NCBI GenBank assembly: GCA_903813345.2
Contig: CAIIXF020000006.1
Coordinates: forward strand, 11,350,348-11,414,347
Reading direction: 5' to 3'
Origin: Owenia fusiformis
Lineage: Eukaryota; Annelida; Polychaeta; Sabellida; Oweniidae
Length of the DNA: 64,000 bases
In this document: positions 1 through 64,000 of the stretch, one piece after another
Layout: the number at the start of each line of letters is the position of its first letter
Numbering within the stretch: position 1 is the stretch's first letter
Position numbers and translations under genes: made by a program
Notes under the pieces: generated by a model
What the model saw: the letters and a program-made list of their open reading frames with translations, nothing else
What the model was told of the DNA's origin: nothing
The model's database searches: none

Positions 1-192
1 CCATCTTAACAGCAGCAATTCTTTTCGGGTCGGATAGATATTGAGTTGGAAAAAGAGAACGATGAGGGTAGAAACTCTAAGGAAACTCTTCTAAAGTGCC
101 TTAACAGGTTTTAAGAGGGTTATAAAATTCCACACCCCTATTTTAAGGGCTTTTAAGGTCATATCTGAAAATAATTGCTGCTGTTAACATGG
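1..192. repeat. Hairpin-type repeat at window edge
   Basis: The first 20 bases (CCATCTTAACAGCAGCAATT) match, with one mismatch, the reverse complement of 173-192 (AATTGCTGCTGTTAACATGG). This gives terminal inverted repeats around a 150-bp interior without an ORF. It looks like a small non-autonomous inverted-repeat element whose left flank is cut by the window, so no target duplication can be read. Confidence 0.55.
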
Positions 193-3100
193 CCAAGGGG
201 GACTCATTGACTAGTAATGTGGTGTAAAATTCAACTTTATTTTGACAAAACACTAACTTTTAAAATGACTGTAACTTTTTCCCATTTGAGAGTTAAACCA
301 TGATACTTGGCAAATCAATGTAACTTTGAATAAGCTTTAAAATGATATATGACACATACTATGATGGCACTGGAATATGTCTGCCTAGGGGGGGGGGCAT
401 ACTTTCGGGACACTCTGTACAAGGGAACAGATTCAATCTACTCAATGTTCGTACCTATCAACAAGACAAAGTTGAAGTGATATAATTTGTATCAAACAAT
501 TTAGTGAACGTAAATGTTACCCAAAGGAGTAAGTGGATTGGATGGTTTGTCGACCTGGTTATTTTAACCTATGAAAGTCTGTCATGTCTAGAATGCCATA
601 CAAACCTACATACAGGGCAGAAAATACCAAATATCAATTTTCATTCTTTATACTATGTACTATTTTGTATGATTTAATAACGGTACGGATTGATACATGA
701 TATAATCGATTATACAATTTTTGTATATATCTTTGATATTGAAAGTTGATTCTTAGTTCATGAATTATATTCATGATAATTATTGGAGCACTATACCAGG
801 ATTTCATTAAACCAATTTATGCCCCCGGGTTTATGCCTATTCAATATGTTCTCATCTCGCTCATGATCTTTTGATCACACAACTGGACATGTGGATGTAT
901 AAACAGACATCGGAATTAACTCCTACAAATTCGGAAACAGACACGTTGCATTCCAAGAAATGGTGTTTGAGAAAAACGAGTACAAGAGTATTCAATGCTG
1001 AGATGCTGCTGTATATGGGATTGTCGAATAATACCAGTTTAAAGACAATAAGCAGCAACTTAAAATGTGCGGAATTGAATATGCACAACTTGATCGTTAA
1101 CTTGGTTGAAAACAAAATACTGATAATGAAGAGTTGCTAAATACCATTATCATTATGTTAATTGGTTTGTCTCGTTAAATTGTCACAGTCATTAGTTCAA
1201 GTTTTTTCTTTTAACGTCAATGAATGCCTTTGACAATAATTATTCATGGCGAACGGTTGTTACAGCGTTTTACAAAACGTGTCATTCGATCTGCGTACAT
1301 GTCGATGTTTTTCAAATCATGAACAAAACGGCCAGAAAAAATATTTATTTCATTTCGTTTCTTTGGTAACCACATCCTTGTTGCATCCTAGAGGTCGTGA
1401 TTTGTAGCTTGATTCTCATCTTGAGAAAGCTTGAGATGTGATGGAACGCATCTAGTTCTTCAATTATCTCGTACATCAAACAATCAATGCACCCAAGTGA
1501 GAACCAGAGGAAGCAGTCGTCAAACTCACTCTGTCTCCATACCTTTATTTCATTCTAGCCATTAGCTTATTTAGAAAGCCGGGATGATACTGTATCTATC
1601 GATAGCACTACAATCCAAGTTGTTAAATTAATGTGTTGTGTCTCTTTTTCATCCTAGGTTGTATGAACTAATGCAGCTTTTAAAAAAGGAGCTTGACCCT
1701 TTGACGCTCTTGTGGATTTAGTCCATTTCACATCAATAGAGATTAACGCTTCATCTTGTATGAGTACAAGTTCCAGTACCCATGTTGGAGTATTGATTCT
1801 TCATATTTCAATATGTATTGAATGAGTGAGGTCACTAAAAATAAAATTTCCGAAATAACCACTGGATTTGGGCATCAATGTCATTAAGTCATTAAGTAAG
1901 AATCGTCGTCTGAAATTGTTGCGATAACCTAAGTGTTCCTTTAATCATCTTTTCAATTATATTGACCTCTAAATTAGATTGACCAATAAATGACCGTGAC
2001 CTCTTAATGTGACCTATGTTTACCGGTAGCATGTGGCCGTGTCCAACCAAAATGACACATTGTATCCGAACATAACTAAATACAGAAAGCATTTAGTTAA
2101 CAGTAAGTGAAAGTCAGACTAAAAGGAACCATCCCTTCGAATAAAATATAACTGAAACGTTTATATACGTTTTATATTATAAAAAGTAAACTCGGAAACT
2201 TGGGTCAAGTCAGAATAGATAGGGGGGAGAGACCGACTTCTTTAGTAGCACTTAGCAGTTGGGCTTTAACAAACGTCTGCATTTTAACCTTATCATGTTT
2301 TTGAAAACTAAAGGAAAAAATATAAACTAATTTTTATATTATGTGGTGCTCAGTCATTTTACACTTACACAGTGGGTGTAGTTCCGATATTACGGGCTCT
2401 AATCAAGCGTTATAATGTACATAGTAGGAGATCATTTATATAAGAAATGTGACAGTGAGGACGGGAAAACTGGAATGGAAATTTCGTATTCTAAAAGTAA
2501 CTGATTCTCTGATATATGACGAAATAGCCTACAATAGGCTTTAAATAGATTGCCGCTCGACACAATCAACGAGTTCGTATTCTTCTACGAACACATTCTT
2601 TCGGAGATCATACTGCATGCCATTGTTATCCAGTAATATGCATATAATTACAACTTGGTAATCGTGATGGTGATTGTTAATATAGAATTTATCCCCGATA
2701 ATATAGTTTATAGAGTGAAATTGTCAATTAGATTGTGCCCAGTGGATCATTAGCCATAATGACACTTTTCAGGTCTCACTGCGGAGATTACACTAATCCA
2801 CAATTTATATCATAATTCAATCAAACAATTCTTATTTATCTCATTTATTATTGGTGTTGATCCGGCTGAAGTATCGTGAACCGTATTGGATTGAGGGATT
2901 AAGACGCATGGATATGACTTCAATACAAGAGATCATCACCACAGTCTTCCATTCAACACCCACCATGATATTGATTCTAACGAACATAGAAATGTTTTTT
3001 TGTTTTTTTTATTGCAAGTGTATCAATTGTCAGAGAATGTTTAAATTTGAATACACCATTTTATATTATAAAAGCTACGTGGTAATCCCTTCTCTGAAGT

Positions 3101-3840
3101 TTTACTAAAACCTGCGATGTAAGATTACATACATGTACTTATGGGCTCGAAATGCCAATTTTCTTAATTTCAAATTATCAATAACATTATGTCTTAAATT
3201 GACGACAGCGATGAACGTTTGACGAAAAATGAAAATCGAAAATTTTATCGTTCAGACTTGCATTACATCAGTCACATCACATATGCCTGGCATTGCCATT
3301 TTTATATTTTATATAAACCTTTGTACAATTTAATGCCATTTCAATTACATCTTTCTCTTACATCTTTCATCATCGTACATCTCTCTCTCGTTTTGTGTGT
3401 TACAATAAACACATTTAAGTTTTAAAGAGAGTTCAATGGCCATATTGGATTTATAAAGACAACCCAACCCATGCATTAAGGCGGATAACTTCGTGATTTT
3501 AGATTTGATGTATATCATGCATAGAAATTCAATATGAAATTATACATACATGTACCTGGCGTGACAGGCTAATAATATATATTGCTGATGTCAACCAATG
3601 GGAAGCCTGTGTCTACCTACGTTTACCTTAGTATCATGACGTCTAATTTCATTAACACATGTTCTTATGATATAAATATTCAATGCTAAACAAATAACAT
3701 TATTATAGAACATATACGAAGTAAAGAAGCGTCTAACCACAGATAGCGATGCCAAGGGCTACAAACGAATTCTAAGAAGACTCATCTTGCTATTGTGTGA
3801 AAATACAAAATTGAAACAACTCAAACCATTTTGAATTTCA
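193..3840. other. Intergenic or 5'-UTR/intron sequence, no gene supported
   Basis: No reading frame here has protein-like composition, a splice context or a recognisable motif. The short ORFs at 861-1140, 1892-2092 and 2851-3425 are AT-rich and lack any domain. The ATG exon at 3841 starts at a good acceptor (TTTTGAATTTCAG), so a 5'-UTR exon and the promoter of the peptide gene should lie somewhere in or before this stretch. I cannot place them. Confidence 0.5.
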
Positions 3841-3987
3841 GAAAAATGGCAACTTTGGTGCAACAGTTAAGACATTTGATAGTTGCGATGACCCTTTGGG
3901 TATCACTAGCTCACGCTCTTCCATTAAGCGACCAACAGATGGACGACACTGGCCTGGTTCATTCAGAAAGAGATGCTCCTTCAAATG
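3841..3987 (+). CDS. Peptide precursor exon 1 (signal peptide)
   Basis: The exon starts after the acceptor TTTTGAATTTCAG. Its ATG is at 3846, only five bases in, so an upstream untranslated exon is implied. The 47 complete codons encode the signal peptide and a short acidic spacer ending SERDAPSN. The donor is ATG|GTAAGT, leaving phase 1. The following intron is about 9.7 kb and full of repeats. Confidence 0.72.
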
Positions 3988-6900
3988 GTAAGTAACGTTA
4001 AAAGTCATCTTACTCTTGTCATTACTGCGCTCAAAAGACGATAATTAGCATATTGTGTTATCAAAAAAGCGCAAGGAGCATATAGAGAACATTGTTAACA
4101 CTAACACAACAGAATAAAACCAAACGATGAGAACAAAAATTAAAACTACTGGTCGGTGTGGCTCACGAAACAAGTCAAAAACAACAGTTACCGTACGCGG
4201 GCAAATTTACGATAATTGATATTTTCAAAATCAGTTGCTCTTAAGAGGGCGATGTTAGATGTGTGTTACCCAAGCAATTAAATACTTTTTCTATGCAAAA
4301 ACCATTTGTCTAATACTTTGTATCCTCCAACACACTGGTTAAATTAACATTGCTGAAGCATCATTTATTCAAGCTTTCGCCAGAAAGTGCGCTTAAAGTC
4401 CCCGTCTAAAGTTTGAAAATATTTTTTTATCATTCATTTACTATTTGTCAGGACTTAAAAAGTGATTTGAGAGATTTTTGAACAAAAAAAAATTTTTGAA
4501 AAAAAAGCATTTCATTTCTCAAATATTCAAATTTCCCGCCATTTTTCAAAAAAAGTTGAAATTTATTAATCATCAAATATTTCTTAATGCATTTCAAAAA
4601 AGATTATCTTTTTAACACCAATGCAAAGATTGAACAAAGGACACACTATTTCCATAATAAAACGCCATATTTAATGGGCCACTTCAATGTTTTAGCATAT
4701 CAAAAATATTTTGAAACATTAGTGATGTCACTAAGGTAACAAAAACTTTTCGAAAAAAATTGAAATTTTTTTTTCGATGTCAATCTTTTCTAAATATGCT
4801 AGACTTTCATAAAAACCAATGTTGATTGTCTAACCAGGTTAAAAGGAAGAATAAATTATGTTTTAGATATCATTGTACCATTGGTTTCTATGAGAACTAT
4901 AATTTTGAAATGCATTTTTCTCAGAACCATTTTCATGCACTGATAAGTTCATTTCTCGCTTATTTATCAACCTATTTTCTTAATTTTTTCGGCAAAAAAC
5001 ATGGGAGGATGAATCCAATGCATTGGTATGAATTGTGGCTAATTAGAAGATATGAGTGACTTCTAAAAGTTGGTTTTAAATAAATTCACAAATTTTGGAA
5101 CAAAAAGTCTATCAAAAACCACTTCTTGAAATTTAAAAAAAAAGTTTCATATATCACACTTTGATAACATTGGGTAAGACTACAATATAAGCCAAAGTGG
5201 TTTAAACTTTACATGGGGCCTTTAAGGGTTACTTCTTAAATGACAGACAATGAAAACATCAGACAAAATATTGTTATTTTCTGTGGTGGATTTAGGTTTT
5301 GCTTTCCAGTATTTTGTATCCTCCAAACATTAAGATTTCATGAATGCACATAAATGATTTCAAACAATTATTTTTAGAATTGAGACTAATCCAATGTAGT
5401 ATTTAAATTATTATTATCTAATTAGACTCCAGATGAAAATCTGGAGTCTATTGCTTTTGCCAGTTTTCTTTATTATTATTATTATTAGACTCCAGATGAA
5501 AATCTGGAGTCTATTGCTTTTGCCAGTTTTCTTTTTATTAGACTCCAGATGAAAATCTGGAGTCTATTGCTTTCGTCAGTTTTCTTTATTATTATTCTTT
5601 CAGAATCTTCCTCCTTCCCAGATTTCTCACCAACTAAAAGAATTTACTTTAAGCTGCTTACATGATTAACTAGGGAATGTATCTGGGATGATGGGAAATT
5701 AGGTCAAATTTTTATCTAGGTCAAAGGTCAAGAACTAGGTCAAATCCAGTACTTTGTCACTTTTTCCCATTATCTCGGTCGTCCTTCAATATTTTTGATC
5801 CTGGTTTTTTTCATTGTGTTCCTCATAAAAAAGTAAAAAACCTAGGGTCGATTTAGTTTTTTGGTATCTCAAACCGATTTCGAGATATCAGTGTCCGAAA
5901 ACGAGGTCCAAAAAAAATTTCACCGAATCCAATGTCCAGGATATCAGTATTATGGGAAATTTTCTCAGGATTCCGAATCTGAAAACCAAATTTCGATCTG
6001 ACTTCCGGTTCAGAAGTTATAGCGTTTTGAAAATTCAAAAATCGCTAAATTTGGTGCCCCATGTTAATTCAATGGGAAAAAATATTTTTTTGAAGTGTAA
6101 AATACGAGATATAGACTAAGCACAGCTAAACATAATGGAAGCCCATAAAAGAAAGGGACCACAAGACCTTCTTTTCATAAAAATTTGGACACCAAAATGC
6201 CTAGGTCAAAATCTAGGTCAAATTCAAAGTTTTTCCTTATTTTTGCGATTCTGACACTACAGATTAATTATATTCTTCGAAAATTTGTGTACATGTAGCC
6301 AAGAGTGTGCTAATAGTGTTATCCTTTTGCCGTCAGGAAGTATTTTGACCCACTTTTGAGATATGGTGTCCGAAAAGTAGGTCAAACTAAAAAGTTCTCC
6401 AAATTTAACGTATGAGTTATGAATTAAGGGTAGAATTTTCTCAGGAATCCAAATCTGCAAACCAAATTTCAATCCGGCTTTTGGTTTGGAATTTATGTCG
6501 TTTTGATAGCTCAAAAATCGCTAAATTTGGTGCCCCATGTTATGGCAATGGGAAAAAAGATTTTTTTGAAGTGAAAAATACGAGATATAGACTTAGTACA
6601 GCTAAACATAATGGAAGCCCATAAAAGAAGGGGACCTCAAAACCTTCTAATTTTGAAAATTTGGACAACAAAATGCCTAGGTCAAAATCTAGGTCAAATT
6701 CAAAGCTTTTCCTTATTTTTGCGATTCTGACACTACACTTTAATTATATTCTTCGAAATTGTGTATACATGTAGCCAAGAGTGTGCTAATAGTGTTAGCC
6801 TTTTGCCGTCAAAAAGTATTTTGACCCACTTTTGAGATATGGTGTCCCAAAAGTAGGTCAAAATAAAAAAATCTTCAAATGTAACGTATGAGTTATGAAT

Positions 6901-9900
6901 AAGGGGTAGAATTTTATCAGGAATCCGAATCTGCAAATCAAATTTTGATTCGACCTCCTGTTCGGAAGTTATGGTGTTTTGAAAGCTCAAAAATCGCTAA
7001 ATTTGCTGCCCCATGTTATGTCAATGGGAAAAAAGATTTTTTTGAAGTGTAAAATACGAGATATAGACTGAGTACAGCTTAATATAATGAAAGCCTATTA
7101 AAGAAGGGGACCTCGAAGGCTACTTAGCTCCAAAATTTGGACACCAAAATGCCTAGGTCAAAATCTAGGTCAAATTTATAGTTTTCCCTTATTTTTGCGA
7201 TTCTGACACTATATTTAAATGATTTGCTTTAAAATTTTGTATACAGGTAGCAAAGAGTATGCTAAAAGTGTTAGCGTTTTGCCGTCAGAAAGTATTTTGA
7301 CCCACTTTTGAGATATGGTGTCCGAAAAGTAGGCCAAAGTTAAAAGTTTTCCAAATTTAACGTATGAGTTATGAATTAAGGGTAGAATTTTCTCAGAAAT
7401 CTAGATCTGCAAACCAATTTTCGATCCGACTACTTGTTCTGAAGTTATGGCGTTTTGAAATCTCAAAAATCGCTAAATTTGGTGCCCCATGTTAAATCAA
7501 TGGGACCGAATAATTTTTTGAAGTATAAAAATACGAGATATAGAATGAGTACAGCTAAACATAATGAAAGCCCATAGAAGAAGGGGACCTCAAAAGCTAC
7601 TTTCCTTCAAAGTTTGGACACCAAAATACCTAGTTCAAAATCTAGGTCAAATTCATAGTTTTTTTTATTTTGCGATTCTGACACTACACTTCAATGATAT
7701 TCTCCGAAATTTTGTAAACTTCTAGCAAAGAGTGTGCTAATAATGTTAACATTTTGCCGTCAATAAGTTTTTTGACCCACTTTTGAGATATGGTGTCCGA
7801 AATGTAGGTCAAAATAAAAAGTTCTCCAATTTTAAAGTATGAGTTATGAATTAGGGGTAGAATTTCCTCAGGAATCTGGATCTGAAATTAAAATTGCAAT
7901 CCGACCCCCGGTTTAGATTCTACGCCATTTTGAAGTTTGAAATTCGCACTTGCCAGTATTCATGATGCAGATTGATCAAATATACTTTCAAAAATATCTG
8001 CATACCCTACTTTACCTCTCTACCTACTCAGCTACTTATTTGACTACTAACTCAAAATTACTTGATTAGTTATTACTTCCTTAGCTACTTACTCAGCTAC
8101 CTACTCAGCTTTTTACTCAGTTACTTACTCAGCTACTTACTCAACTACTACTTAGGTACTTACTCAGCTAATTACTCAGTTACTTACTCAGCTCTTTACT
8201 GATCTATCTAGGTCAAATAAATCTGGAGTCTTAAATTGAACTTGTTCAATTTCACAAATCTAGTTATTATTCTTTCTTCCTCTTCCTCCTTCCCAGATTT
8301 CTCGCCAACTAGAAGAGCTTACTTTAAGCTGCTTACATGATTAACTAGGGAATGTATCTGGGATGATGGGAAATTAGGTCAAATTTTTATCTAGGTCAAA
8401 GGTCAAGAACTAGGTCAAATCCAGTACTTTGTCACTTTTTCCCATTATCTCGGTCGTCCTTCAATATTTTTGATCCTGGTTTTTTTCATTGTGTTCCTCA
8501 TAAAAAAGTAGAAAACCTAGGGTCGATTTAGTTTTTTGGTATCTCAAACCGATTTCGAGATATCAGTGTCCGAAAACGAGGTCCAATAAGAATTTCACCG
8601 AATCCAATGTCCAGGATATCAGTCTTATAGGAAATTTTCTCTGGATTTTGAATCTGAAAACCAATTTTCGATCAGACTTCCGGTTCAGAAGTTATGGCGT
8701 TTTGAAAATTCAAAAATCGCTAAATTTGGTGCCCCATGTTAATTCAATGGGAAAAAATATGTTTTTGAAGTGTAAAATACGAGATATAGACTAAGCACAG
8801 CTAAACATAATGGAAGCCCATAAAAGAAAGGGAGCACAAGACCTTCTTTTCATAAAAATTTGGACACCAAAATGCCTAGGTCAAAATCTAGGTCAAATTC
8901 AAAGTTTTTCCTTATTTTTGCGATTCTGACACTACAGATTAATTATATTCTTCGAAAATTTGTATACATGTAGCCAAGAGTGTGCTAATAGCGTAAGCCT
9001 TTTGCCGTCAGAAAGTATTTTGACCCACTTTTGAGATATGGTGTCCGAAAAGTAGGTCAAAATAAAAAATTCTCCAAATTTTACATATGAGTTATGAATT
9101 AAGAGGAGAATTTTCTCAGGAATCCGAATCTGCAAACCAAATTTCGATCCGACTTCCGGTTCCAAAGTTATGGCGTGTCCGAAAAGTAGGTCAAAACAAA
9201 AATTCGCCAAATTTAACGTATGAGTTATGAATAAGGGGTAGAATTTTGTCAGGAATCCGAATCTTTAAATCAAATTTCGATCTGACTTCCGGTTTGAAAG
9301 TTATGGCGTTTTGAAATTTCGAGAAAAATCGATCTGATGTTATCCTGATAGAAAGTCAAGGAAAAAAGATTTTTTTGAAGTGTAAAATACGAGATATAGA
9401 TTGAGTACAGCTTAAGATAATGAATTCCTATAAAAGAAGGGGACCTCAAAAGCTACCTAGTTTCAATATTTGGACACCAAAATGCCTAGGTCAAAATCTA
9501 GGTCAAATTCATAGTTTTTCCTTATTTTTGCGATTCTGGCACTACACTTTTAGGATTTGCTTCAAAATTTTGTATACAGGTAGCAAAGAGTGTGCTTATA
9601 GTGTAAGTCTTTTGCCGTCAGAGAGTATTTTGACCCACTTTTGAGATATGGTGTCCGAAAAGTAGGTGAAAATAAAAAATTCTCCAAATTTAACATATGA
9701 GTTATGAATTAAGAGTAGAATTTTCTCAGGAATCCGAATCTGCAAACCAAATTTCGATCCGACTTCCGGTTCCAAAGTTATGGCGTGTCCAAAAAGTAGG
9801 TCAAAATAAAAATTCGCCAAATTTAACGTATGAGTTATGAATTAGGGGTAGCATTTTGTCAGGAATCCGAATCTTTAAATCAAATTTCGATCCGACTTCC

Positions 9901-12900
9901 GGTTCGGAAATTATGGCGTTTTGAAATTTCGGAAAATCGATCTGATGGTATCCTGATAGAAAGTCAAGGAAAAACGATTTTTTTGAAGTGTAAAATACGA
10001 GATATAGATTGAGTACAGCTTAAGATAATGAATTCCTATTAAAGAAGGGGACCTCAAAAGCTACCTAGTTTCAATATTTGGACACCAAAATGCCTAGGTC
10101 AAAATCTAGGTCAAATTCATAGTTTTTCCTTATTTTTGCGATTCTGGCACTACACTTTTAGGATTTGCTTCAACATTTTGTATACAGGTAGCAAAGCGTG
10201 TGCTAATAGTGAGAGCCTTTTGCCGTCAGAAAGTATTTTGACCCACTTTTGAGATATGGTGTCCGTAAAGTAGGTCAAAATAAAAAGTTCTCATAATTTA
10301 ACTTATGAGTTATGAATTAAGGGTAGAATTTCCTCAGGAATCCAAATCTGCAAACCAAATTTCAATCCGACTTCCGGTCAAAAATTCCTACTTACCTACC
10401 TACTTACCTACTCGGCTACCTACTTAGCTACCTACTCAGCTACCTACTCAGCTACTTACTCAGCTACCTACTCAGCTACTTACTCAGCTACCTACTCAGC
10501 TACTTACTCAATTACTTAATCATCTACTTACTCAGCTTCCTACTCAGTTACTTACTCAGTTACTTACTCAGCTCTTTACTCAAGTAAATCAATCTGGAGT
10601 CTTAAATTGAACTTTGTTCAATTTACCAATCTAGTTATTATTATTCTTCTTCCTCCTTCCCAGATTTCTCACCAACTAGAAGAGCTTACTTTAAGCTGCT
10701 TACATGATCAACTAGGGAATGTATCTGGCTTTCTGGGAAATTAGGTCAAATTTTTATCTAGGTCAAAGGTCAAGAACTAGGTCAAATCCAGTACTTTGTC
10801 ACTTTTTTCAATTTTCTCGGTCGTCCTTCAATATTTTCAATCCGGGTTTTTTTCATTGTGTTCCTCATAAAAAAGTAGGGGAAAACAGGTCGATTTAGTT
10901 TTTTGATATCTCAAACCGATTTCGAGATATCAGTGTCCGAAAACGAGGTCCAAAAAAAAGTTCTCCCAATTCAATGTCCACGCTACTGGTCTTGTAGGAA
11001 ATTTTCTCAGGATTCCGAATCTGAAAACCAAATTTCGATCCGACTTCCGGTTCGGAAGTTATATCGTTTTGAAAGCTCAAAAATCGCTAAATTTGGTGCC
11101 CATGTTAAGTCAATGGGAAAAAAGATTTTTTTGAAGTGAAAAATACGAAATATAGACTGAGTTCAGCTAAATATAATGGAAGCTTTTAAAAGAAGGGGAC
11201 CTCAAAAGCCATCTAGCTTAAAAATTTGGACACAAAAATGCCAAGGTCAAAATCTAGGTCAAATTCAAAGTTTTTCCTTATTTTTGCGATTCTGACACTA
11301 CACTTTAATTATATTCTTCGAAATCGTGTATACATGTAGCCAAGAGTGTGCTAATAGTGTTAACCTTTTGCCGTCAGGAAGTATTTTGACCCACTTTTGA
11401 GATATGGTGTCCCAAAAGTAGGTCAAAATAAAAAAATCTTCAAATTTAACTTATGAGTTATGAATCAGGGGTAGAATTTTGTCAGGAATCGGAATCTGCA
11501 AACCATATTTCGATCCGACTCCCGGTTCGGAAGTTATGGCGTGTCCAAAAAGTAGGTCAAAATAAAAAAATTCTAAATTTATCGTAAGAGTTATGAATTA
11601 GGGGTAGAATTTTATCAGGAATCCGAATCTGCAAACCAAATTTCGATTCGACATCTTGTTCAGAAGTTATGATGTTTTGAAAGCTCAAAAATCGCTAAAT
11701 TTGGTGCCCCATGTTAAATCAATGGGACCGAATAATTTTTTGAAGTGTAAAAATACAAGATATAGAATGAGTACAGCTAAACATAATGAAAGCCCATAAA
11801 AGAAGGGGACCTCAAAAGCTACTTTCCTTCAAAATTTGGACACCAAAATACCTAGTTCAAAATCTAGGTCAAATTCTTAGTTTTTTCTTATTTTTGCAAT
11901 TCGGACACTACACTTCAATGATATTCTTCGAAATTTTGTATACATGTAGCAAAGAGTGTGCTTATAATGTTAACTTTTTGCCGTCAAGAAGTTTTTAGGC
12001 CCACTTTTGAGATCTGGTGATCGAAATGTAGGTCAAAATAAAAAGTTCTCCAAATTTAACGTATCAGTTATGAATTAGGGGCATAATTTCCTAAGGAATC
12101 CGGATCTGAAATTAAAATTGCAATCCTACCCCCAGTTAAGCCATTTTGAAGTTTGAAATTCGCAGTTGCCAGTATTCACGATGCAGATTGATCAAATAAA
12201 CTTTCAAAAATTCCTACATACCCTACTTTACCTCCCTACCTACTCAGCTACTTATTTGACTACTTACTCAATTGCTTAATTAGTTATTACTTACTTAGCT
12301 ACTCACTCAGCTACTAACTCAGGTACTTACTCAGCTACTTACTCAGCTACCTACTCAGCTTTTTACCCAGTTACTTACTCAGCTACTTACTCAACTACTA
12401 CTAAGGTACTTACTCAGCTAATTACTCAGTTACTTACTCAGCTCTTTACTGATCTATCTAGGTAAAATAAATCTGGAGTCTTAAATTGAACTTGTTCAAT
12501 TTCACAAATCTAGTTATATCTAATTTGTTAGTAAATTGAATATGTTGAGTATGTGTTGGAGGATACAAAGCATATGGACATTATTAAACGTGTTATTTCT
12601 CAGTGAGTATGAAATATTGAACAACCCTTTTTGAGAGCTGGCCAGAAATATATTTTATTAACCAGTTAGAAATTATTGACGGCCTTGATGCATAATTTGT
12701 TGTTGTTTGAATTTCAATAGCCACCATTAAAGCTGTTTTTAAGAAATAATAAGCAATATTTTCAATATATATCGCATGGTCATGGTAAACAGTTGTGTTG
12801 ACATTACGATAGCACACATATAATGTCTTTGATATCAATATACATGGCGCAGGATGGGGTAGAATAGCAGAATTCATGGAGTTTAAGAAATATCAATTAT

Positions 12901-15900
12901 CGTAAATTTGCCCACGCTTCCTAAAAATTTGTCTTGTATTGACTTAGATTGTAACAAAACCATTCGGTACTTTGGATCACATTAATAATGACTGATTAAT
13001 GTAATATTTAGACTTAAAAGACAATATAGGAATTCCTAGTAAGTTATGCTGAAACTAAATTGTGATATTGTAGTATACGTGGAGTTATTGCAGCATGACT
13101 CTGAGAAAGGGTTGCATATGATATAGAAATTTGCATATTTTAATTTTGTTCGTATATAAGAGCTGACATCTGCTTTTACACACAGTATATCAACATCGTG
13201 ATTATGTGAAATCTAAATTTTTAACTAATTTACTCTATTGTATATCAGGAATAAAACATGCAAATTCATATTCGATACTTAACAACCCTTTAAGGCTTTT
13301 GTTCGAAGTGTCTGTCTGCTGCAATTAGCATGTGCTCTTTGTGTCCTTAATGAAAGCACACTTTTTGTAACAGATTATTTGCTTCAAACCTAACACAAGC
13401 CATTCAAATCAGGTTCAGTTTTCGCTACTTTAACTACTGCTCTCTTCATTTTCGTTAAACAAATATTTGATAATTTTAAAACGCTTATCACACAATGATT
13501 TACTTCACATGCATCATAAAGTAAAGTATATTAAAATATTTAACGGATATAACATTCAAATTAAAATATTCTGAAACAACAAAACATATTTGCGTCAAAT
13601 GTAAGAGACAAGTAAACACATTACTGACCTTGCCCATGGTTCAAAGCGAAGACAAAACACAAATGTCAACATTTACTTTCAGCGTTGGGTGATATTCTAC
13701 TGAACAAACTGAGATTCCGCGACCTGTCTTCAGAAAGCGCACCTATTGGTCTGATGTACTACCTTGAGAAGCACTATCCATACCTTAGCAACAGTGGACT
13801 AAGTGCAGCAAACAAAATAAGTAAGAGTCATTTAAGCCCGCATTTAAGTTGACCTATGGCATATGTCAGAAAAATTGCATATTGCTGGCTGAATATGTGG
13901 AATTTCAAATCAATAGTATCTTATTTGTGTACAGAGAACAAAAATATAAAAGTTAAACTAAATAAAAAACATCTTTTTGGTCCACCCTGTATCTAAACCT
14001 AATCTAAACCTAAAAACCTAATCTTTTATGTAATAACAAAGGACGACTTTCGGTTTGGCGAACCAAATTTATCAGCATATTTCTACGTTATCAATGTCGC
14101 CAAAAACGTTCATAATTTTATGTATTGTAGATTTAAATGTCCTTTTTGTATACTTTGTATATTAGCGAACCCCATGTATTGCATAATCCTGTTGAACGGG
14201 TGTAAAAAATTAGCAGATAATAAACCTTGACCTGTCATAAGCGTATCATGAAAAAATCATTCAAACATGACCGTGCTCTATTCGAATTTCTCAACCAATC
14301 AGAATGCAGCATAGCCAATATAGAACGTTCTCTAATTCTCCATAGATGCACGACCATGCTCTATTCAATCTGCAATTTGCATTGTTTTGAGTGACGTCAC
14401 AGCTGCACATCTGGGGCTCTGTCCGGGGATAGCTGTTCTTTTTTACTCCCTCCGTAACTACTGTAACTATTTAACTATGGCTGACTTCAAGTTTGCAGTC
14501 GCATACACCGTATAAAATCTAAAATGGGGAGTAAAATAGAACAGCCCATACAAATTCTAAAATTTTTCCGACCGACTTCAGAATCTTGACAGCATGCATA
14601 TTCTTCCTTCATGCCCGTTCCACAGACACGGCTATTACTAATTTTTATGTTTGAATCGGAATAAATAATGATAGGCCATTCAATATGGTGAAATTCAGCA
14701 CTCGTTGGACAGAATGTTAGTACAAATGCACTCACCTTCGGTTCGTGCTTTGTACAACATTCTGTCCAACTCGTGCTGAATTTCACCATATTGAATGGCC
14801 TATCATTATTTATTCCTTAATTTGAATATGCTTATTATAAAGATATTGACCTTTATAAATTAAACATTATTCTTCTAGTAGCAATACACAGCCCCACCTT
14901 CAGTTACAAGACACTGCCTTTGCATATAGTACCTTTTGTCAGAACTTGCAATTTCAGTTTTTGCACTTATGGTGAAACAAATACAACAAACGTATTAATA
15001 TGTATATGTGAAAGCCTTCTTGATTTATTTTAGTCTTATTCTATATAATATATATAGAACCATTATATTAATTGTAGAGAAATGAGTCGCCGATTGGCAT
15101 CTTATAAATGTGTTAATTCCTTGTATTGTAATACGTTCTCAAATACGTATCTCCGATGTACTGTAAATTTACTAATGTATCTCGTAGTTGTTACGAAGCT
15201 TTGGTCACTTTCATCTAATATTACGTGTTATATTTCGCTTCAGTTTCCTCAAAACCAGAAAAGCGTATGGACATGACTGTAACACAGCTCGCTGATTTAC
15301 TATCCAACTTAAGAAAACAACGGCAGATAGATGGCCAAAACTACATGACTAGCTTACGATTCAGCAGACGATAAAACTACTTGCTCCCTCTATCCACAAT
15401 TTTCTATTTCTTTATTTCTAATTTGTTTCGCATTACTTCATACTTAATTCTTATTGTTCGTAGGCTCTATGAGATGTGACTTTATGTAGAATGAGTATTG
15501 TCAGCAAAGCTTATAGTGAATTATAGTAGATACTTGATTTCAGATGAAGATGAAAGTAAGCTGCTTCAGATTAAAAATCTCTCTATGGACAGTAGTTTCT
15601 TGTTAGATATATAGATATAGTAGTACTTTGCAAAATCTTTCAACGCTATTCTTTCTCTATCCAGACAACAAGGGCCAGACGCTTCCAAAGGATAAGCGGG
15701 AAGGGACAAAGAAAATGAATCTTGCTGAGTTAGCAGATCTTCTCTCTGAAATTCGCTCCAGACGATTGGCTGGAAACCTTAAATTGGGCAATCTTCGCTT
15801 TTCCTAATGTAAGATCGCTTAGATCTGTTGAGCTTTTTGTTCCCTATTAATCAAGATATGCCATTCCTCTCAGCTTATCCAATCATATTCTATATTTTTG

Positions 15901-16290
15901 TTTGTTATAGAGATCTAGAGCTCGGCATGTCAGCGCAGCGCCATCTTTCCAGCATGTCAATGAATGGTTTTATGATCACCCCAGAATGCATGTAGTCGAT
16001 TTTGCCACCAAATGCCATATCTTATAATGCATTTATTTTGCTTTGTTTCTTTCGCTTATTTTGCTTGCTTTACTTAGTTTGCTTTATTTTGCTTTGGTTT
16101 AGCTGGTAAAGGAAATCCTAGAATATTTAAAAGAAATGGAAGACAGATGGTCACTAAACGCCGATTCACAAACTCATTGACCATGTCAAGTCTAGCCGAT
16201 CTTCTATCAAGCATGCGTCACCATAAGGCAATACACAGAGGAATTGATCAAGCCCGGTTATACCTTCAACCAAATTTAAGGTTCGGGTAA
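3846..16290 (+). CDS. Secreted peptide-hormone precursor with three alternative C-terminal exons
   Basis: Seen: exon 1 (3846-3987) encodes a signal peptide (hydrophobic HLIVAMTLWVSLAHA, likely cut before LPLSDQQ). Exon 2 is 13683-13820. Three further exons (15244-15374, 15665-15807, 16103-16290) all accept the same phase-1 junction and each ends in a stop. Products are 136, 140 or 155 residues. Each last exon carries basic cleavage sites, a Leu-rich segment (QLADLLSNLRKQRQ; ELADLLSEIRSRR; SLADLLSSMRHHKAIHR) and a C-terminal LRF: LRFSRR, LRFS or LRFG. Known: such architecture is typical of neuropeptide precursors, and a C-terminal Gly is the usual amidation donor. Inferred: alternative splicing selects one of three related 30-45-residue peptides. 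The L..LL..(L/M)R...RF pattern loosely recalls NPY/NPF or QRFP-type peptides, but I cannot assign a family. An AATAAA lies at 16763. Confidence 0.72.
4397..5221. mobile_element. TTAA-flanked inverted-repeat element (825 bp)
   Basis: TTAA occurs directly on both sides (4393-4396 and 5222-5225). The ends AGTCCCCGTCTAAAGTTT and AAACTTTACATGGGGCCT are imperfect inverted repeats. The interior is AT-rich with homopolymer runs and no transposase, so this is a non-autonomous element. A TTAA duplication is characteristic of the piggyBac and Kolobok superfamilies. It sits in intron 1 of the peptide gene. Confidence 0.6.
8021..8200. repeat. 12-bp minisatellite (CTACTTACTCAG-like)
   Basis: About 15 imperfect copies of CTACTTACTCAG or CTACCTACTCAG close the first macro-repeat unit. 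The same block closes the other two units. Confidence 0.85.
10386..10575. repeat. 12-bp minisatellite (CTACTTACTCAG-like)
   Basis: This is the second copy of the minisatellite block, at the end of macro-repeat unit 2. It is the most regular of the three, with alternating CTACCTACTCAG and CTACTTACTCAG. Confidence 0.85.
12230..12450. repeat. 12-bp minisatellite (CTACTTACTCAG-like)
   Basis: This is the third copy of the minisatellite block, closing macro-repeat unit 3. Variants include a single CTACTACTAAGG-like unit that is also present in unit 1, suggesting units 1 and 3 are the closer pair. Confidence 0.85.
12521..13682. other. Remainder of intron 1, no feature seen
   Basis: AT-rich sequence without coding signal. 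The motif GGAGGATACAAAG at 12550 repeats in reverse complement (CTTTGTATCCTCC) near 4316 and imperfectly near 5310, suggesting a repeat flank on both sides of the macro-repeat array. Confidence 0.4.
13683..13820 (+). CDS. Peptide precursor exon 2 (common exon)
   Basis: The acceptor is TTTACTTTCAG and the donor ATAA|GTAAGA. The exon enters at phase 1 and leaves at phase 1. It encodes 46 residues starting ALGDILLNKLRFRDLS, without dibasic sites. The stretch LGDILLNKLRF resembles the LADLL...LRF core of the later exons, so this exon may be a diverged fourth cassette that now serves as propeptide. Confidence 0.7.
14658..14816. repeat. Hairpin element, about 65-bp arms
   Basis: The left arm beginning GGAATAAATAATGATAGGCC pairs with the right arm ending GGCCTATCATTATTTATTCC. 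The only clear break is a CTCG/CGAG inversion near the apex. The loop contains ACTCACCTTCGGTTCGTG. It lies in intron 2 of the peptide gene. Confidence 0.85.
15244..15374 (+). CDS. Peptide precursor alternative last exon A
   Basis: Read from the acceptor CGCTTCAG at phase 1 it gives ISSKPEKR followed by a peptide of about 35 residues containing VTQLADLLSNLRKQRQ. It ends YMTSLRFSRR before TAA. The KR pair is a prohormone-convertase site. The C-terminal RR would be trimmed, leaving LRFS with no Gly for amidation. Confidence 0.65.
15665..15807 (+). CDS. Peptide precursor alternative last exon B
   Basis: The acceptor is TTCTCTATCCAG. The exon begins NNKGQTLPKDKR, then has a segment with MNLAELADLLSEIRSRR, and ends LGNLRFS before TAA. 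It shares spacing and the LADLL and LRF blocks with exons A and C. As in exon A, the residue after LRF is Ser rather than Gly. Confidence 0.65.
16103..16290 (+). CDS. Peptide precursor alternative last exon C (LRF-amide)
   Basis: The acceptor is TTTGCTTTGGTTTAG. The exon has two upstream basic sites (FKR and TKRR), then a peptide containing MSSLADLLSSMRHHKAIHR, and ends LQPNLRFG before TAA. The terminal Gly predicts an LRF-amide C-terminus, the only one of the three. It is the longest of the alternatives at 62 codons plus two bases. Confidence 0.68.
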
Positions 16291-16762
16291 CGATACCAAA
16301 GAAGCTCACTACGCCAATGGGACATTAAGGAAGTCGCACATGGACTCACACGCTGCCAATAGACAGGCTCAAATATTGAATCGGATGGACTGGTGCCATA
16401 TTCATAAACAGTTTGGTCCATTGAGGAACATTATCACTGTATTTCGTTTTCATTTTACTGATTCAGTATTATATAATAGGAATAGCATGCTAGTCACAGT
16501 GATACTTCGCTCTGACATCATTGCGATTGATACAATTACATTGTATTAGTAAAACTGCAATTGCGATTCATTCATTCACATTGCATTAATTAACAGTATG
16601 GACCCGGGAGTATAGATAAAATATTCAGGTCCAACATGTAATGATATAATTTCCCAATGAACGTATATGTTTAACGGTGCTTGGTTATCAATCTCGGTAT
16701 TTTGTAAACTATTAATAGTGATTTGATGACCACAAGCAGGTTATTTATAAGAGTAGGACTTC

Positions 16763-16768
16763 AATAAA
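16763..16768 (+). promoter_or_regulatory. Candidate polyadenylation signal AATAAA
   Basis: This AATAAA follows the stop of alternative exon C by about 470 bases. No comparable signal was seen close after exons A or B, which fits a common 3' end but does not prove it. Confidence 0.4.
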
Positions 16769-16885
16769 AAGAAAGCAAATATTAGCATGTAATTTGATTA
16801 TGATATGGTTATTCACATGGTAACATTCAGAGTAAACATAACCACAAACATGTAGACCCGGGCATGTAGAAGTATGTCAAAGGCC

Positions 16886-16985
16886 ATTCTGACACTCATA
16901 GCATCTTTCTGTTTCACCTGAAACATGATTTTAAGGCTGAGAAGAAATCAGATGTCATGGTTTATCATGATGCTAGAAGGCAGTA
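16886..16985. repeat. Dispersed repeat fragment (copy 1)
   Basis: This stretch, with GATGTCATGGTTTATCATGA, matches the reverse complement of 28040-28136 at roughly 80% by eye. In one frame it reads AEKKSDVMVYHDARRQ. The same frame in the other copy holds DVMVYHDA but is interrupted by stops, so a decayed element ORF is possible. I do not recognise the protein. Confidence 0.5.
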
Positions 16986-17209
16986 TATGTACAATATTTT
17001 CAACGTAGATGTGAGCATAGTCTTAGTTCATTTTATTTAATTATTGAAAATCAGAACATATTACATGTAATTTTTAAGTTATGTACGGGGTCATAGTATT
17101 ATGTAGTTGCATTGGAAGGTATGGTAAAGCTGTTGATTCGAAGGTGTAACCGAAATGGATATATAGTAATTTTGTCTCATTTTACAATATATAGCCTATA
17201 TTAGAGCAA

Positions 17210-17470
17210 GTGCAAAAGGACGGAGATTTGCTGAGTACTAAAATTGTACAAAATTAGTACTATTAACACTTTGGCAAAAGCGCGCTCACGAGCACTCATG
17301 CCACGAGTGCTTATTTAGTATAAATTCATGATATGAGTACTCTAGTACTAAAAATACAATAAATCAACACTCATGTCATTAGTGCTCATTTAGTACTAAT
17401 ACTTGATTAAATGAGTACTCAGTTAGAGCTAAAATGCCATGAGTACTATTTTAGTGCTCAGTATATCTCC
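17210..17470. repeat. AGTACT/GAGTGC-rich degenerate repeat
   Basis: Short motifs GAGTACT, TTTAGTACTA and CACTCATG recur irregularly in both orientations. This gives low-complexity, self-complementary DNA with no coding signal. Confidence 0.55.
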
Positions 17471-21796: not shown

Positions 21797-21815
21797 AAAA
21801 AAAATTTCGTGAAGC

Positions 21816-22068
21816 ATGAATCTACAGAATCTACAAGAAAAATTGAGTATCCGTTGTCAGGGACATCTTGGCATACTCGTGGTTTTCCTTACGATTGTGA
21901 TAATGGGCACAAATTCACTCCCCGTTTCCTCACTTAAACAGACAGTGAAAAATGTAGAAAAACACCACCAAGTTGTTTATGATCGTGATACAAACGCCAA
22001 AAGGCGGCAAGGGGACCATTTCAAGTATCAGCCTCGTGATGGTGAGGCGAATTTGACAAAATTTAGAA
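21816..22068 (+). CDS. Glycoprotein exon 1 (signal peptide)
   Basis: Encodes 84 full codons. The hydrophobic core lies at residues 18-31, followed by NSLPVSSLKQ. A mature part rich in K/R/D ends NLTKFR. Reading on past the donor quickly gives unrelated AT-rich residues, supporting the splice at 22068. Confidence 0.68.
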
Positions 22069-23022
22069 GTATGTTTAAACTAACCAATTCAGAACTACTA
22101 ATAATATCATTGTTTTATCATATGAGTTCGTTGTTTATCTTATCGATGTCAAAACGTTTCGAAAACCGTGTCAAAATTGACGTGTTGTTTACCAAATGCT
22201 CTTACCGATAATGTTTATCTTTTTCCAGAAATGAACACGGCAATAGAGAGCGTCCTTGACATAATGCCGCTTCCAGTAACAAGCAGGCGTACCAAACCAC
22301 AAAGTGGTCACGTTCCTTTCCCTCCACATCGTAGGCCAATTGCAACAGGTCATCCCGTCCATACGGCCCATCCTGTTCATCCAAGCCACCCTGTACATAC
22401 AGACCACCCCGTACACGGTGGAGACGACGATGTCAGCACAACTGTTGCTATGCGAACATCAAAAGATCCAAAACGGTTATCCCCTAATCCAACAACTACT
22501 GAAACGACGAGAACAACCACAGAGGCAATTATCTCTCTGCCAAATCGAACAGTAGATTTGGGAAACAACACGTCAATTATCCTGTATATACTCCCAGCAA
22601 CCACGCCCATGCCCAGAAACGACACGTTGCCTAGCAACATAACAGATGACAACAAACGACAGTTTTGGCTTAATCAATCCCTTGTCATGTTTAGAAAATT
22701 CTATGCAGTGGTGAAAGTCGGATTCAGCTTGGAAAACAAAAACCGAAATTTGACAAATGCTCTAAAGAACACAACTGCGTCGTTCATTAACTTGACAGCC
22801 GAGGATTACCGACACATTCCGGGATTAGAACACGATGATGATCTATATGACCAATTGAAAATTGAGCAACATAGAAATATGTCGGCGGAATACATGAGAA
22901 CTCTCTTTTGGAAACTTTATGATACAACACAAAATGGTTTAACGTCAGATGGTATCGCTCTATTCAACGCTCAACCCACTACCATAGAGGACTTGGCCTA
23001 TCACTGCTGCCCGTTTGGCTGA
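21816..23022 (+). CDS. Secreted, heavily N-glycosylated protein, unrecognised
   Basis: Two exons (21816-22068 and 22229-23022) join at phase 1 through donor AGAA|GTATGT and acceptor CTTTTTCCAG to give 348 residues. The ATG lies 19 bases after another good acceptor (TTTTCTTTTCAG), so a 5'-UTR exon precedes it. Seen: an N-terminal signal or anchor segment (LGILVVFLTIVIMG), a basic region, an HPVH repeat block (HPVHTAHPVHPSHPVH), a Thr-rich linker, then a C-terminal domain of about 170 residues that is probably helical. There are at least nine NxS/T sequons and an end of YHCCPFG. The only Cys residues of the mature C-terminal domain are the adjacent CC. Inferred: an extracellular ligand or mucin-like secreted factor. 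I assign no family. The terminal Gly could be an amidation donor, but that is speculative. Confidence 0.7.
22229..23022 (+). CDS. Glycoprotein exon 2 (main body)
   Basis: A 794-base exon, long for this window, in open frame to the TGA at 23020-23022. It carries the HPVH repeats, the Thr-rich linker and the sequon-rich helical domain. The regular coding composition contrasts with the AT-rich flanks. Confidence 0.75.
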
Positions 23023-23121
23023 AATTTTTGCTTTGAGGCAATGTATAGAATAGGATAGGATTCTTTATTTCCTCAAATTTTTATATGATGGAAAATATAA
23101 AAAATATAAAAATAAGAATAT

Positions 23122-24209
23122 ATAGAGATTATCCTATATGAGGTTCAGGATATTGGGATTATCCCGAGGCCAATATAATATATCTGCCCGAGGGCCGTAG
23201 GTCCCGAGGGTAGATGTATTATATTGGCCAAGGGATAATCCCAATATCCTGAACCGACTATAGGATGATCTGTTTATCCCATACCAATCACATTGTTCAA
23301 TTGGCCAAAGTTCAGAAACTTTGCAACCAATCGTGGAATTATTTCAAAATATTCATGTCCAGTTTTGTATTCTTGTTTCTTTTCCTGCTCAAATCGTTGA
23401 TTATTAACGGGGTATACTGCTCCTTCCCTTCTTTAAAGCATCAAACAGGTCGAGATTGTCTGCGTTTTTCTCCATTGTCGTTTACAGTATGCGAACGTTA
23501 CAAAAAAGAACCAATACGGGAACAGCGATTATGACGTAGCGGGCAGATATACTATATCTGCCCGCTCGGAGCGGGACGTAAAGCTATATCTGCCCGCTGA
23601 TGAAAATATAAGTTTTTACAAACCGGCTTTATGTACCCGTAACACGTCCAAGTATGGGATAAAAATATTTATCCCATACTTGGACGTGTTACGGGTACAT
23701 AAAGCCGGTTTGTAAAAACTTATATTTTCATCAGCGGGCAGATATAGCTTTACGTCCCGCTCCGAGCGGGCAGATATAGTATATCTGCCCGCTACGTCAT
23801 AATCGCTGTTCCCGTATTGGTTCTTTTTTGTAACGTTCGCATACTGTAAACGACAATGGAGAAAAACGCAGACAATCTCGACCTGTTTGATGCTTTAAAG
23901 AAGGGAAGGAGCAGTATACCCCGTTAATAATCAACGATTTGAGCAGGAAAAGAAACAAGAATACAAAACTGGACATGAATATTTTGAAATAATTCCACGA
24001 TTGGTTGCAAAGTTTCTGAACTTTGGCCAATTGAACAATGTGATTGGTATGGGATAAACAGATCATCCTATAGTCGGTTCAGGATATTGGGATTATCCCT
24101 TGGCCAATATAATACATCTACCCTCGGGACCTACGGCCCTCGGGCAGATATATTATATTGGCCTCGGGATAATCCCAATATCCTGAACCTCATATAGGAT
24201 AATCTCTAT
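23122..24209. repeat. Near-perfect 1,088-bp palindrome
   Basis: The two 544-bp arms are reverse complements as far as I could check. Two ORFs, 23265-23534 (+) and 23797-24066 (-), encode the same 89 residues. The axis is at about 23665.5 with a single A/A mispair and essentially no loop. Each arm begins with a smaller hairpin of about 160 bp whose loop holds GCCCGAGGGCCGTAGGTCCC. It is most simply a foldback mobile element, or alternatively an assembly fold-over. The 89-residue ORFs have no domain and are not called as genes. Confidence 0.9.
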
Positions 24210-24227
24210 TTATCCCATGGTTACAAG

Positions 24228-33909: not shown

Positions 33910-34381
33910 TAAGGTATGAGTACCGTAATCCAACACCAAATTCGAAAATTCATAACAATACTTTGCACATATGGCGTTCGTGACCAACTATAAAACGCTT
34001 ACCCCCCATAGTGTTATATATCAAAATGTACCTGTTCATATAGGGGTTCGATTGATCTACATCAAATTATAGGGAGTCAGGTTACTTTTTGAGATATCAG
34101 CGTCCATTTATTGTGACTCGCGTTTGCTACCACTTCCTCAATTCTGATATGATAGGCAAACGCGTAGTATACATGCTCACGTCGGAACTATTTTTGACCT
34201 ACATCGCTATTTTCGTAATTCAAATGAAAGTTGAACTCCTCCTCTTTATTTTGATACCAAATAGTGGCATACTAGGTACCCTAGAAGCCAACTATGGCGT
34301 TATTTAGAACAATACCACGAGTTTTTAAATGGACTATATAGGGGTCATACCTTTTGGCGGATGGATATGGAACCTCATACC
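33910..34381. repeat. 472-bp direct repeat, left copy
   Basis: Identical over its whole length to 35170-35641. Its ends are short inverted repeats (AGGTATGAGTACC against GGAACCTCATACC). A 72-codon ORF is carried in both copies but has no known domain. Confidence 0.95.
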
Positions 34382-35169: not shown

Positions 35170-35641
35170 TAAGGTATGAGTACCGTAATCCAACACCAAA
35201 TTCGAAAATTCATAACAATACTTTGCACATATGGCGTTCGTGACCAACTATAAAACGCTTACCCCCCATAGTGTTATATATCAAAATGTACCTGTTCATA
35301 TAGGGGTTCGATTGATCTACATCAAATTATAGGGAGTCAGGTTACTTTTTGAGATATCAGCGTCCATTTATTGTGACTCGCGTTTGCTACCACTTCCTCA
35401 ATTCTGATATGATAGGCAAACGCGTAGTATACATGCTCACGTCGGAACTATTTTTGACCTACATCGCTATTTTCGTAATTCAAATGAAAGTTGAACTCCT
35501 CCTCTTTATTTTGATACCAAATAGTGGCATACTAGGTACCCTAGAAGCCAACTATGGCGTTATTTAGAACAATACCACGAGTTTTTAAATGGACTATATA
35601 GGGGTCATACCTTTTGGCGGATGGATATGGAACCTCATACC
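35170..35641. repeat. 472-bp direct repeat, right copy
   Basis: Identical to 33910-34381. The identity stops sharply on both sides (TTAATG against ATAATC at the right), so it is a unit rather than part of a longer duplication. Confidence 0.95.
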
Positions 35642-54426: not shown

Positions 54427-54626
54427 GATAAGTTCATGACCACTATACATGTAGCTTCCACATTCTTTTGATTATAGTGTAACATACTATGATTAGATAT
54501 AGGGGCTATATTAAAGAATCATTTTCTATGTATAGAGTGTACATGAGGCCATGCTATTTTGCAGGTAGTGCTATATAAATTTCTCCATTTGTAAGCAGAT
54601 CAGCAAGGAGTGTTGCTCATGTTGTC

Positions 54627-63217: not shown

Positions 63218-63244
63218 CTGAAAAATGTTTAACAGAATGTTAAC

Positions 63245-64000
63245 CAGAACAACAGCAACGCCAAAGCGTAGCGAATCCCATCGAACAGAAATGGCTGGCA
63301 TTTTTACAAACGAATGGCAAATATCATAAAACAACACACCAGAAAGGCCACCATTTTTAAAGTGGTTGCTCAGTAGCCAAGTTGTCATCAGGAGAAATAA
63401 TATGCTTTTAAGAAGCCACCTCTAAAATTTTGAAAAATCGCACACGTACTAGTAAAATAACACACATAAAAATGGTGGCCATTTTATAAGACAATGTGCC
63501 ATGCTTAAAGTACACATATCAAATATGAACAAAATCGCTCGACTACTTTTCGAGTTATAGTAAAATACATTAACATGACGGCCCTTTTTCAAAATGGCCA
63601 CCTTCTACCAAAAGTGTCATTAGAAATAGACAGTGTGCGGTGCTTATAGTATTCACATACCAAATATGAACAAAATCACTCCACTACTTTTCAAGTTATA
63701 GTAAAATATGTTAAAATGGCGGCCATTTTTTAAAATTTTTTCAAAATGGCCACCTTCTACCAAAAGTGTCATAGGACAGTGTGCCATGCTTATAGTATTC
63801 ACAAATTTGAACAAAATCGCTCCACTACTTTTCGAGTTATAGTAAAATACGTTAAAATGGCGGCCATTTTGAAAAATGGCCGCCTTCTACTAAAAGTGTC
63901 TTTAGACAGTGTGCAATGCTTATAGTATTCACATATCAAATATGAACAAAATCGCTCCACTATTTTTTAGGGATGGGACGGTTCGTTTCGGTTCGGTTCG
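63245..64000. repeat. Second AAAATGGCNGCC tandem array, running off the window
   Basis: Starts with the same CAACGCCAAAGCGTAGCGAA motif as 59997 and repeats the ~130-150-bp unit at least five times. Several units have a perfect AAAATGGCGGCCATTTT palindrome (63715, 63855). It continues past 63960 into a GGTTCGGTTCG run at the window edge. Confidence 0.85.

Follow-up and report, generated by a model that had tools for sequence, protein, structure and literature searches.

A common way for peptide families to diversify is gene duplication; another is to carry many copies of a peptide in one precursor. Tandem copies of an exon, one of which is used per transcript, are familiar from the mutually exclusive exons of Dscam and SNAP25, in which one exon copy replaces another within a longer protein. 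Calcitonin and CGRP are peptides with two N-terminal cysteines. Their gene in vertebrates, like the calcitonin genes of ophiuroids and insects, combines common N-terminal exons with alternative peptide exons to give different hormones (PMC5627052; this and all other papers are cited here from parts of their text). We describe a stretch of 64,000 bases from the annelid Owenia fusiformis (bases 11350348-11414347 of contig C6, hereafter the window, in a genome of 498 Mb and 525 contigs), which very probably holds one peptide-hormone gene giving rise to three related hormones by alternative splicing of duplicated, stop-bearing exons, here termed cassettes.

Layout of the gene

The gene with its three cassettes is real, as its sequence, its exon phases and reading frames, the quality of its splice sites and the conservation of protein sequence between the copies all attest. 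Its parts, numbered by window position, are as follows.

3846..3987, plus strand: candidate signal-peptide exon from the hydrophobic-core scan, encoding MATLVQQLRHLIVAMTLWVSLAHA then LPLSDQQMDDTGLVHSERDAPSN and one further base (phase 1)
3988..13682, plus strand: intron 1, 9.7 kb, with many tandem repeats
13683..13820, plus strand: common exon, encoding (A)LGDILLNKLRFRDLSSESAPIGLMYYLEKHYPYLSNSGLSAANKI, phase 1 at both ends; the N-terminal part of the propeptide, common to all isoforms
15244..15374, plus strand: cassette 1, coding part and stop; predicted peptide at 15267-15365, MDMTVTQLADLLSNLRKQRQIDGQNYMTSLRFS, then RR and stop; no amide expected
15665..15807, plus strand: cassette 2, coding part and stop; predicted peptide at 15715-15804, MNLAELADLLSEIRSRRLAGNLKLGNLRFS; no amide expected
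16103..16290, plus strand: cassette 3, coding part and stop; predicted peptide at 16165-16284, FTNSLTMSSLADLLSSMRHHKAIHRGIDQARLYLQPNLRF, then Gly (16285-16287); C-terminal amide expected

The exon boundaries that a preliminary description had placed at 13820, 15244, 15665 and 16103 are exact, with acceptors, phases and frames in agreement, and the three successive exons do indeed accept phase 1 and run to stops of their own (ending at 15374, 15807 and 16290). Each cassette begins with the two bases that finish a phase-1 codon (Ile, Asn and Thr in cassettes 1, 2 and 3), and the frame stays open from the signal-peptide exon through the common exon into every cassette, giving precursors of 136, 140 and 155 residues. 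The 45 codons of the common exon are preceded by two bases and followed by one, between an acceptor ending in CTTTCAG and a donor AA/GTAAGA at 13821. Splice sites were ranked throughout with a simple home-made matrix, among the 3468 AGs and 3308 GTs of the window: the cassette acceptors at 15244, 15665 and 16103 rank 74th, 9th and 72nd (8th, 1st and 6th among the 124 AGs within 13821-16300), and the donor of the common exon ranks 97th.

A signal-peptide exon had also been proposed, with no coordinates. When bases 1-13680 were scanned for an ATG with hydrophobic core and phase-1 donor, the interval 3846-3987 was the sole candidate; the scan did not pick up eleven other hydrophobic ATG frames. 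The donor GT of this interval, at 3988, ranks second in the window. The signal peptide MATLVQQLRHLIVAMTLWVSLAHA, which continues LPLSDQQ..., ends in AHA/L, a proper A-x-A site as read directly from the sequence rather than by a predictor. Because TTTCAG ends four bases 5' of the ATG, a non-coding exon may precede position 3846.

Intron 1 contains tandem arrays with units of 476 and 133 bases (window 5958-11671), which could affect splicing of the gene or the assembly. In the common exon, positions 13685-13717 read LGDILLNKLRF, which resembles the LADLL and LRF motifs of the cassettes; the idea that this is a fourth, relic cassette was rejected when a profile of the cassettes missed it at E 50.

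Conservation of the cassettes

All three cassettes encode a peptide of the form LADLLS..R...LRF after a dibasic site. A six-frame search of the window gives three occurrences of the pattern LADLLS.{10,30}LRF, and 60 first-order Markov windows, which contained six bare LADLL, gave none; the one further LADLL of the window (at 54607, minus strand) is not accompanied by LRF. Over their 31 shared codons, the three pairs of cassettes differ at 49, 48 and 55 of 93 bases, third positions having changed most, and they share 13, 12 and 13 residues of 31, as against neutral means of 4.7-6.0 (simulated P 0.00015, 0.00095 and 0 of 20,000). Ten of the 31 columns are invariant in all three cassettes, a figure reached in none of 40,000 neutral trials; the simulation covers all 31 shared columns and its rows were not realigned, which makes the null somewhat easy, though the margin is wide. 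Judged by these comparisons, the cassettes are old duplicates under protein-level selection. The same evidence bears on the idea of one working cassette beside two decaying relics of duplication, with which the retention of the amidation Gly in cassette 3 only would agree. Frame, dibasic site, acceptor and the ten invariant residues have been kept in all three, however, and every pair shows silent changes; we regard such relics as very improbable.

The profile, built from the three cassettes themselves, found them at E < 1e-18, with no other match in the window below 0.85; given its origin, only the absence of other matches is informative. Genome-wide, the DNA form of LADLLSx[hydrophobic]R gave 13 matches (three for a reversed control), of which three are these exons; five of the remaining ten were inspected, and none is peptide-like by eye, one being a long low-complexity frame that repeats LLADLL. 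No second locus came from genome protein searches with a segment of cassette 2, the joined cassette-1 precursor and cassette 3, although their sensitivity was weak (the cassette 2 query missed cassettes 1 and 3). Remote paralogues elsewhere in the genome are possible, because such a search is weak for so short and divergent a sequence.

Splicing of the cassettes

Four further features, all downstream of the cassette 1 stop, bear on how the cassettes may be spliced.

15556..15557, plus strand: possible donor in the 3' part of cassette 1, GAAA/GTAAGC, rank 42 of 3308 GTs
15570..15575, plus strand: ATTAAA from the hexamer scan, possible poly(A) signal for cassette 1
15809..15810, plus strand: possible donor one base past the cassette 2 stop, TAAT/GTAAGA, rank 28 of 3308 GTs
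16763..16768, plus strand: AATAAA, the sole canonical poly(A) signal in 15001-17357, downstream of all three cassettes

Of ten poly(A) hexamers scanned for, none occurs in the interval separating cassette 2 from cassette 3. Cassettes 1 and 2 each have a fair donor downstream, and no poly(A) hexamer belongs to cassette 2 alone. These two are therefore perhaps not last exons but internal exons with a stop, or else acceptors leading into a single long terminal exon. Exon duplication followed by alternative terminal splicing was the original proposal: duplication and stop-bearing alternative exons stand (same phase, motif and tail, with silent changes), but the word terminal is perhaps inexact, and 'alternative last exons' may be only the simplest of several labels compatible with the splice and poly(A) signals.

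Predicted peptides

The hallmarks of a peptide-hormone precursor are found together at this locus: a signal exon with an A-x-A site, KR, KK or KRR before the helix, and no Pfam domain above cut-off. The basic cleavage site attributed to each exon is there (KR, KR/KK and KRR), and counting from the dibasic sites the mature peptides are predicted to be about 33, 30 and 40 residues long in cassettes 1, 2 and 3. The LADLL-centred, helix-like segment of the preliminary description is also borne out, LADLLS being present in all three; AlphaFold2, run on the three-row alignment, placed a helix at residues 27-53 of translated cassette 3, spanning LADLL (mean pLDDT 66.7, pTM 0.32), so that a helix across LADLL is predicted with moderate confidence. 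The C-terminal LRF is common to the three as a motif but not in its chemistry, the residues that follow it being S-R-R-stop in cassette 1, S-stop in cassette 2 and G-stop in cassette 3. Because Gly follows LRF only there, the cassette 3 peptide is the only predicted amide of the three. The internal RSRR of the cassette 2 peptide could also be cleavable.

Relation to known peptide families

Pfam searches (E up to 10) with the three joined forms, less their signal peptides, gave no family above cut-off; below it, the first form gave nothing and the other two one match each, to unrelated prokaryotic families. A PDB sequence search with one of the three joined forms returned only recA (E 0.47 and 0.8), a PDB fold search with a 61-residue model gave a single, meaningless match at E 7.4, and Rfam gave no match in the window. 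In two panels of known peptide families (40 typed peptides ranked by shuffle z; 38 compared with the cassette profile, of which 29 were scored and the other nine set to the floor value) none stands out. No published report naming these peptides was found in the PMC-licensed literature, as far as its text was covered; one confined to a supplement would have escaped notice. By sequence, the three peptides match none of the hormone families compared here, and three possible affinities are considered in turn.

A distant NPY/NPF relation, raised in the preliminary description, is not supported. NPY/NPF peptides and the cassettes have in common a long, helical, amphipathic peptide and a basic tail ending in an aromatic residue (RF in the cassettes). 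The family tail is RxRF- or RxRY-amide, however, and the cassettes end in SLRF, NLRF and NLRF. NPY/NPF genes presumably have an intron inside the tail Arg codon, and the LRF codons lie wholly inside each cassette, leaving no intron at that point. Against the cassette profile, NPY, PYY and PP were equalled by 0.137, 0.15 and 0.29 of shuffles, and the NPFs of Aplysia, Moniezia and Drosophila by 0.48, 1.0 and 1.0 (the last two having no profile score), so that similarity does not rise above shuffles. In echinoderms and other bilaterians, the NPY/NPF peptide sits right after the signal peptide (PMC5627052). Here it is C-terminal, with about 70 residues of shared propeptide between the signal peptide and the cassette. 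A relationship to NPY/NPF is in our judgement extremely improbable.

The best of the profile panel were CGRP, VIP and PACAP, with 0.003, 0.017 and 0.02 of shuffles as high, by way of RLAGLLS and LRKQ; these raise the idea of a ligand for a secretin-family (class B) receptor, either a cysteine-less relative of calcitonin/CGRP or a VIP/PACAP-like peptide. The known use of alternative peptide exons by the calcitonin gene (PMC5627052) also speaks for it. With 38 peptides tried, however, 0.003 (1 in 300) becomes about 0.13 after correction and is not significant; the LRKQ match is confined to cassette 1, and no cassette contains a Cys, let alone the two of calcitonin and CGRP. A class B ligand seems quite improbable.

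The third affinity, a QRFP/26RFa-type relation, had been suggested with the proviso that spacing differs. QRFP/26RFa, known from vertebrates and amphioxus, shares with the cassettes a long peptide, an N-terminal L-A-[DE]-x-L, an RF end and a single copy per precursor (PMC4062910). Without gaps, L5..L8-A9-E10..L12-N13 and the basic residue 19 of 26RFa align with [L/V/M]..L-A-D..L-S and R/R/K of the cassettes (PMC4058657); by eye, L/V/M-x-x-L-A-[DE]-x-L-[NS] is common to both, as is a basic residue ten past the Ala. Residues 5-13 of the receptor-bound peptide are termed a helix in the main text of the paper on the complex, though its abstract, contradicting this, describes the bound peptide as having no secondary structure (PMC11187126). 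L4, A8, K18 and G20 are said to be conserved in chordate QRFPs (PMC4062910); anchored by eye on the A, the L is found in one of three cassettes (V, L, M), the A in three, the K in one (R, R, K) and the G in none.

This resemblance finds no statistical support. Ranked by shuffle z averaged over the three cassettes, 26RFa comes 14th of 40, which is not significant; in the comparison with the cassette profile it comes 11th of 38, matched or exceeded by 0.24 of shuffles. The 26RFa family (PF11109) has no match at this locus; over the genome it has one, elsewhere, which contains a stop and lies below cut-off (E 1.85). The difference in spacing is confirmed, the stretch from LADLL to the tail being 5-13 residues longer than in 26RFa, and the peptides differ in kind: QRFP/26RFa has 25-26 residues and an FRF-amide, whereas the cassettes have 30-40 residues, LRF rather than FRF, a predicted amide in one of three only, and three alternative peptides. 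With no similarity above shuffles and no PF11109 match at the locus, QRFP was dropped as a classification and kept as a rival explanation, according to which the three peptides are spiralian QRFP/26RFa-type ligands of a GPCR (G protein-coupled receptor) of the QRFP-receptor type encoded in this genome; we think this unlikely.

Candidate receptors

Spiralian trissin-, kisspeptin-, ETH- and proctolin-type receptors, and the QRFP-type receptors of lophotrochozoans, were still without ligands in 2021 (PMC8557429, in the part of its text drawn on here). Because several spiralian receptors then lacked a ligand, an orphan annelid peptide under strong selection would be a concrete ligand candidate, and the presence of a QRFP-type receptor in the genome would count in favour of the QRFP explanation. 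One candidate is as follows.

C9:26378256-26379206, minus strand: locus L007, candidate QRFP-type receptor

Human GPR103 groups with L007 and L013 (support 97/95) in a 12-row tree made of ten high-ranking annelid loci, the near-copy L013 and GPR103, from which the truncated frame L014 and the single-exon fragments L017-L020 were left out. This pairing makes L007 the closest to GPR103 among those annelid loci but not thereby its orthologue, GPR103 being the sole vertebrate receptor in the tree. The part of L007 from the first outer loop to the C-terminus has the QRFP receptor as its best PDB match (105 bits, with orexin receptor 2 at 98 and NPFF receptor 1 at 84.5). On the other side, among the 115 scored matches of the GPR103 genome search, L005 and L006 have better E-values than L007, and L006 itself matches NPFF receptor 1 first (183 bits, as against 155 for the QRFP receptor). 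L007 may make a QRFP test worthwhile; it would not turn the cassette peptides into QRFPs. L007 and L013 (C101:9969) are nearly identical, one being on a large contig and the other on a small one, and may represent an unmerged haplotype. By eye, L017 resembles an orexin/allatotropin-type receptor. Another locus, L016 (C5:38347211-38348134), has an N-terminus, LTPEQREALYRIY, like the N-terminal helix-loop-helix of GPR103, LTREQFIALYRLR, while its membrane part matches NPY receptor 1 first; the GPR103 motif is said to resemble no sequence of any other protein (PMC11187126), and the L007 and L013 stretches yielded no motif like that of L016.

How the gene may work

As to the use of separate transcripts, processing, receptor type and function, we infer the following. 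A secreted precursor would open with the signal peptide, followed by some 70 residues of propeptide common to all forms, and the splicing machinery would add one of the three duplicated exons as C-terminus. Because all cassettes share a phase and each has its own stop, every mRNA would specify one precursor (136, 140 or 155 residues) with one LADLL-helix peptide. A cut at the dibasic site directly before the helix would release peptides of some 33, 30 and 40 residues, the third amidated on its C-terminal Phe by way of the terminal Gly, the first two ending in LRFS as free acids (in cassette 1 after removal of RR). The targets would most likely be neuropeptide GPCRs, with the conserved helix resting against the receptor's outer face and the LRF tail in its pocket, and the difference between amide and acid would separate receptors or potency. 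It could even be, though we hold it distinctly unlikely, that ligands long missing for a spiralian QRFP-type (or another orphan) receptor come from this gene, and that splicing rather than processing decides between LRF-NH2 and the LRFS acid. If so, the products of one gene would be agonists that prefer different receptors, perhaps even one agonist together with its antagonists.

Several points weigh against a gene for three hormones. The signal exon lies 9.7 kb away across a repeat-rich intron, and would be linked to the remainder by frame, phase and signal-peptide character. The acceptor of the common exon is only fair (rank 330 of 3468 AGs), and the unused AGs at 14626, 15762, 14346 and 15953 outscore the acceptors of cassettes 1 and 3. 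Two of the three predicted peptides have no amide, which would be unusual beside an RF tail, and matching by family model, PDB sequence or fold yields nothing.

Other features of the window and genome

At 23118-24213 the window has a perfect inverted repeat with 546-base arms and a 4-base spacer, either a foldback element of very recent origin or an artefact of assembly, and 33910-34209 and 35170-35469 are identical direct copies (300 bases compared) lying 1260 bases apart. Two open frames overlap at 21813-23019 (plus strand): the first includes, close to its start, a hydrophobic stretch, and the second is rich in Ser, Thr and Pro. They have no Pfam match and are perhaps a secreted-protein gene adjoining the peptide gene. 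A frame at 62993-63421 (minus strand), again with no Pfam match, resembles 2-aminoadipate transaminase (PDB 2egy, E 1.7e-6) and is possibly an exon of a gene extending past the window. Elsewhere in the genome, all five FMRFGKR-coding matches (control, none) lie within 700 bases on C6, in a putative spiralian FMRFamide precursor. The giant-haemoglobin linker family PF16915, presumably an annelid family, has three genome matches above cut-off, one of them with an internal stop. Both findings fit an annelid genome; a search for COX1 gave no match.

Comparison with known systems

The gene shares with Dscam and SNAP25 tandem exon copies, one used per transcript, but here every copy would carry a stop and a whole hormone. 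By mechanism, the nearest known kind would be the calcitonin/CGRP gene, and the phase-matched exons, each with a stop, are what alternative peptide exons would look like. The ophiuroid calcitonin gene has a variant that holds both peptides in a single precursor (PMC5627052), whereas the present locus has three tandem duplicates with stops of their own, no Cys ring and another tail. What would be new is the set of three stop-bearing tandem hormone exons together with the split between amide and acid, whose consequence could be tested with three synthetic peptides. A gene with three such exons in matching phase would give spiralians a counterpart to calcitonin/CGRP, with more cassettes.

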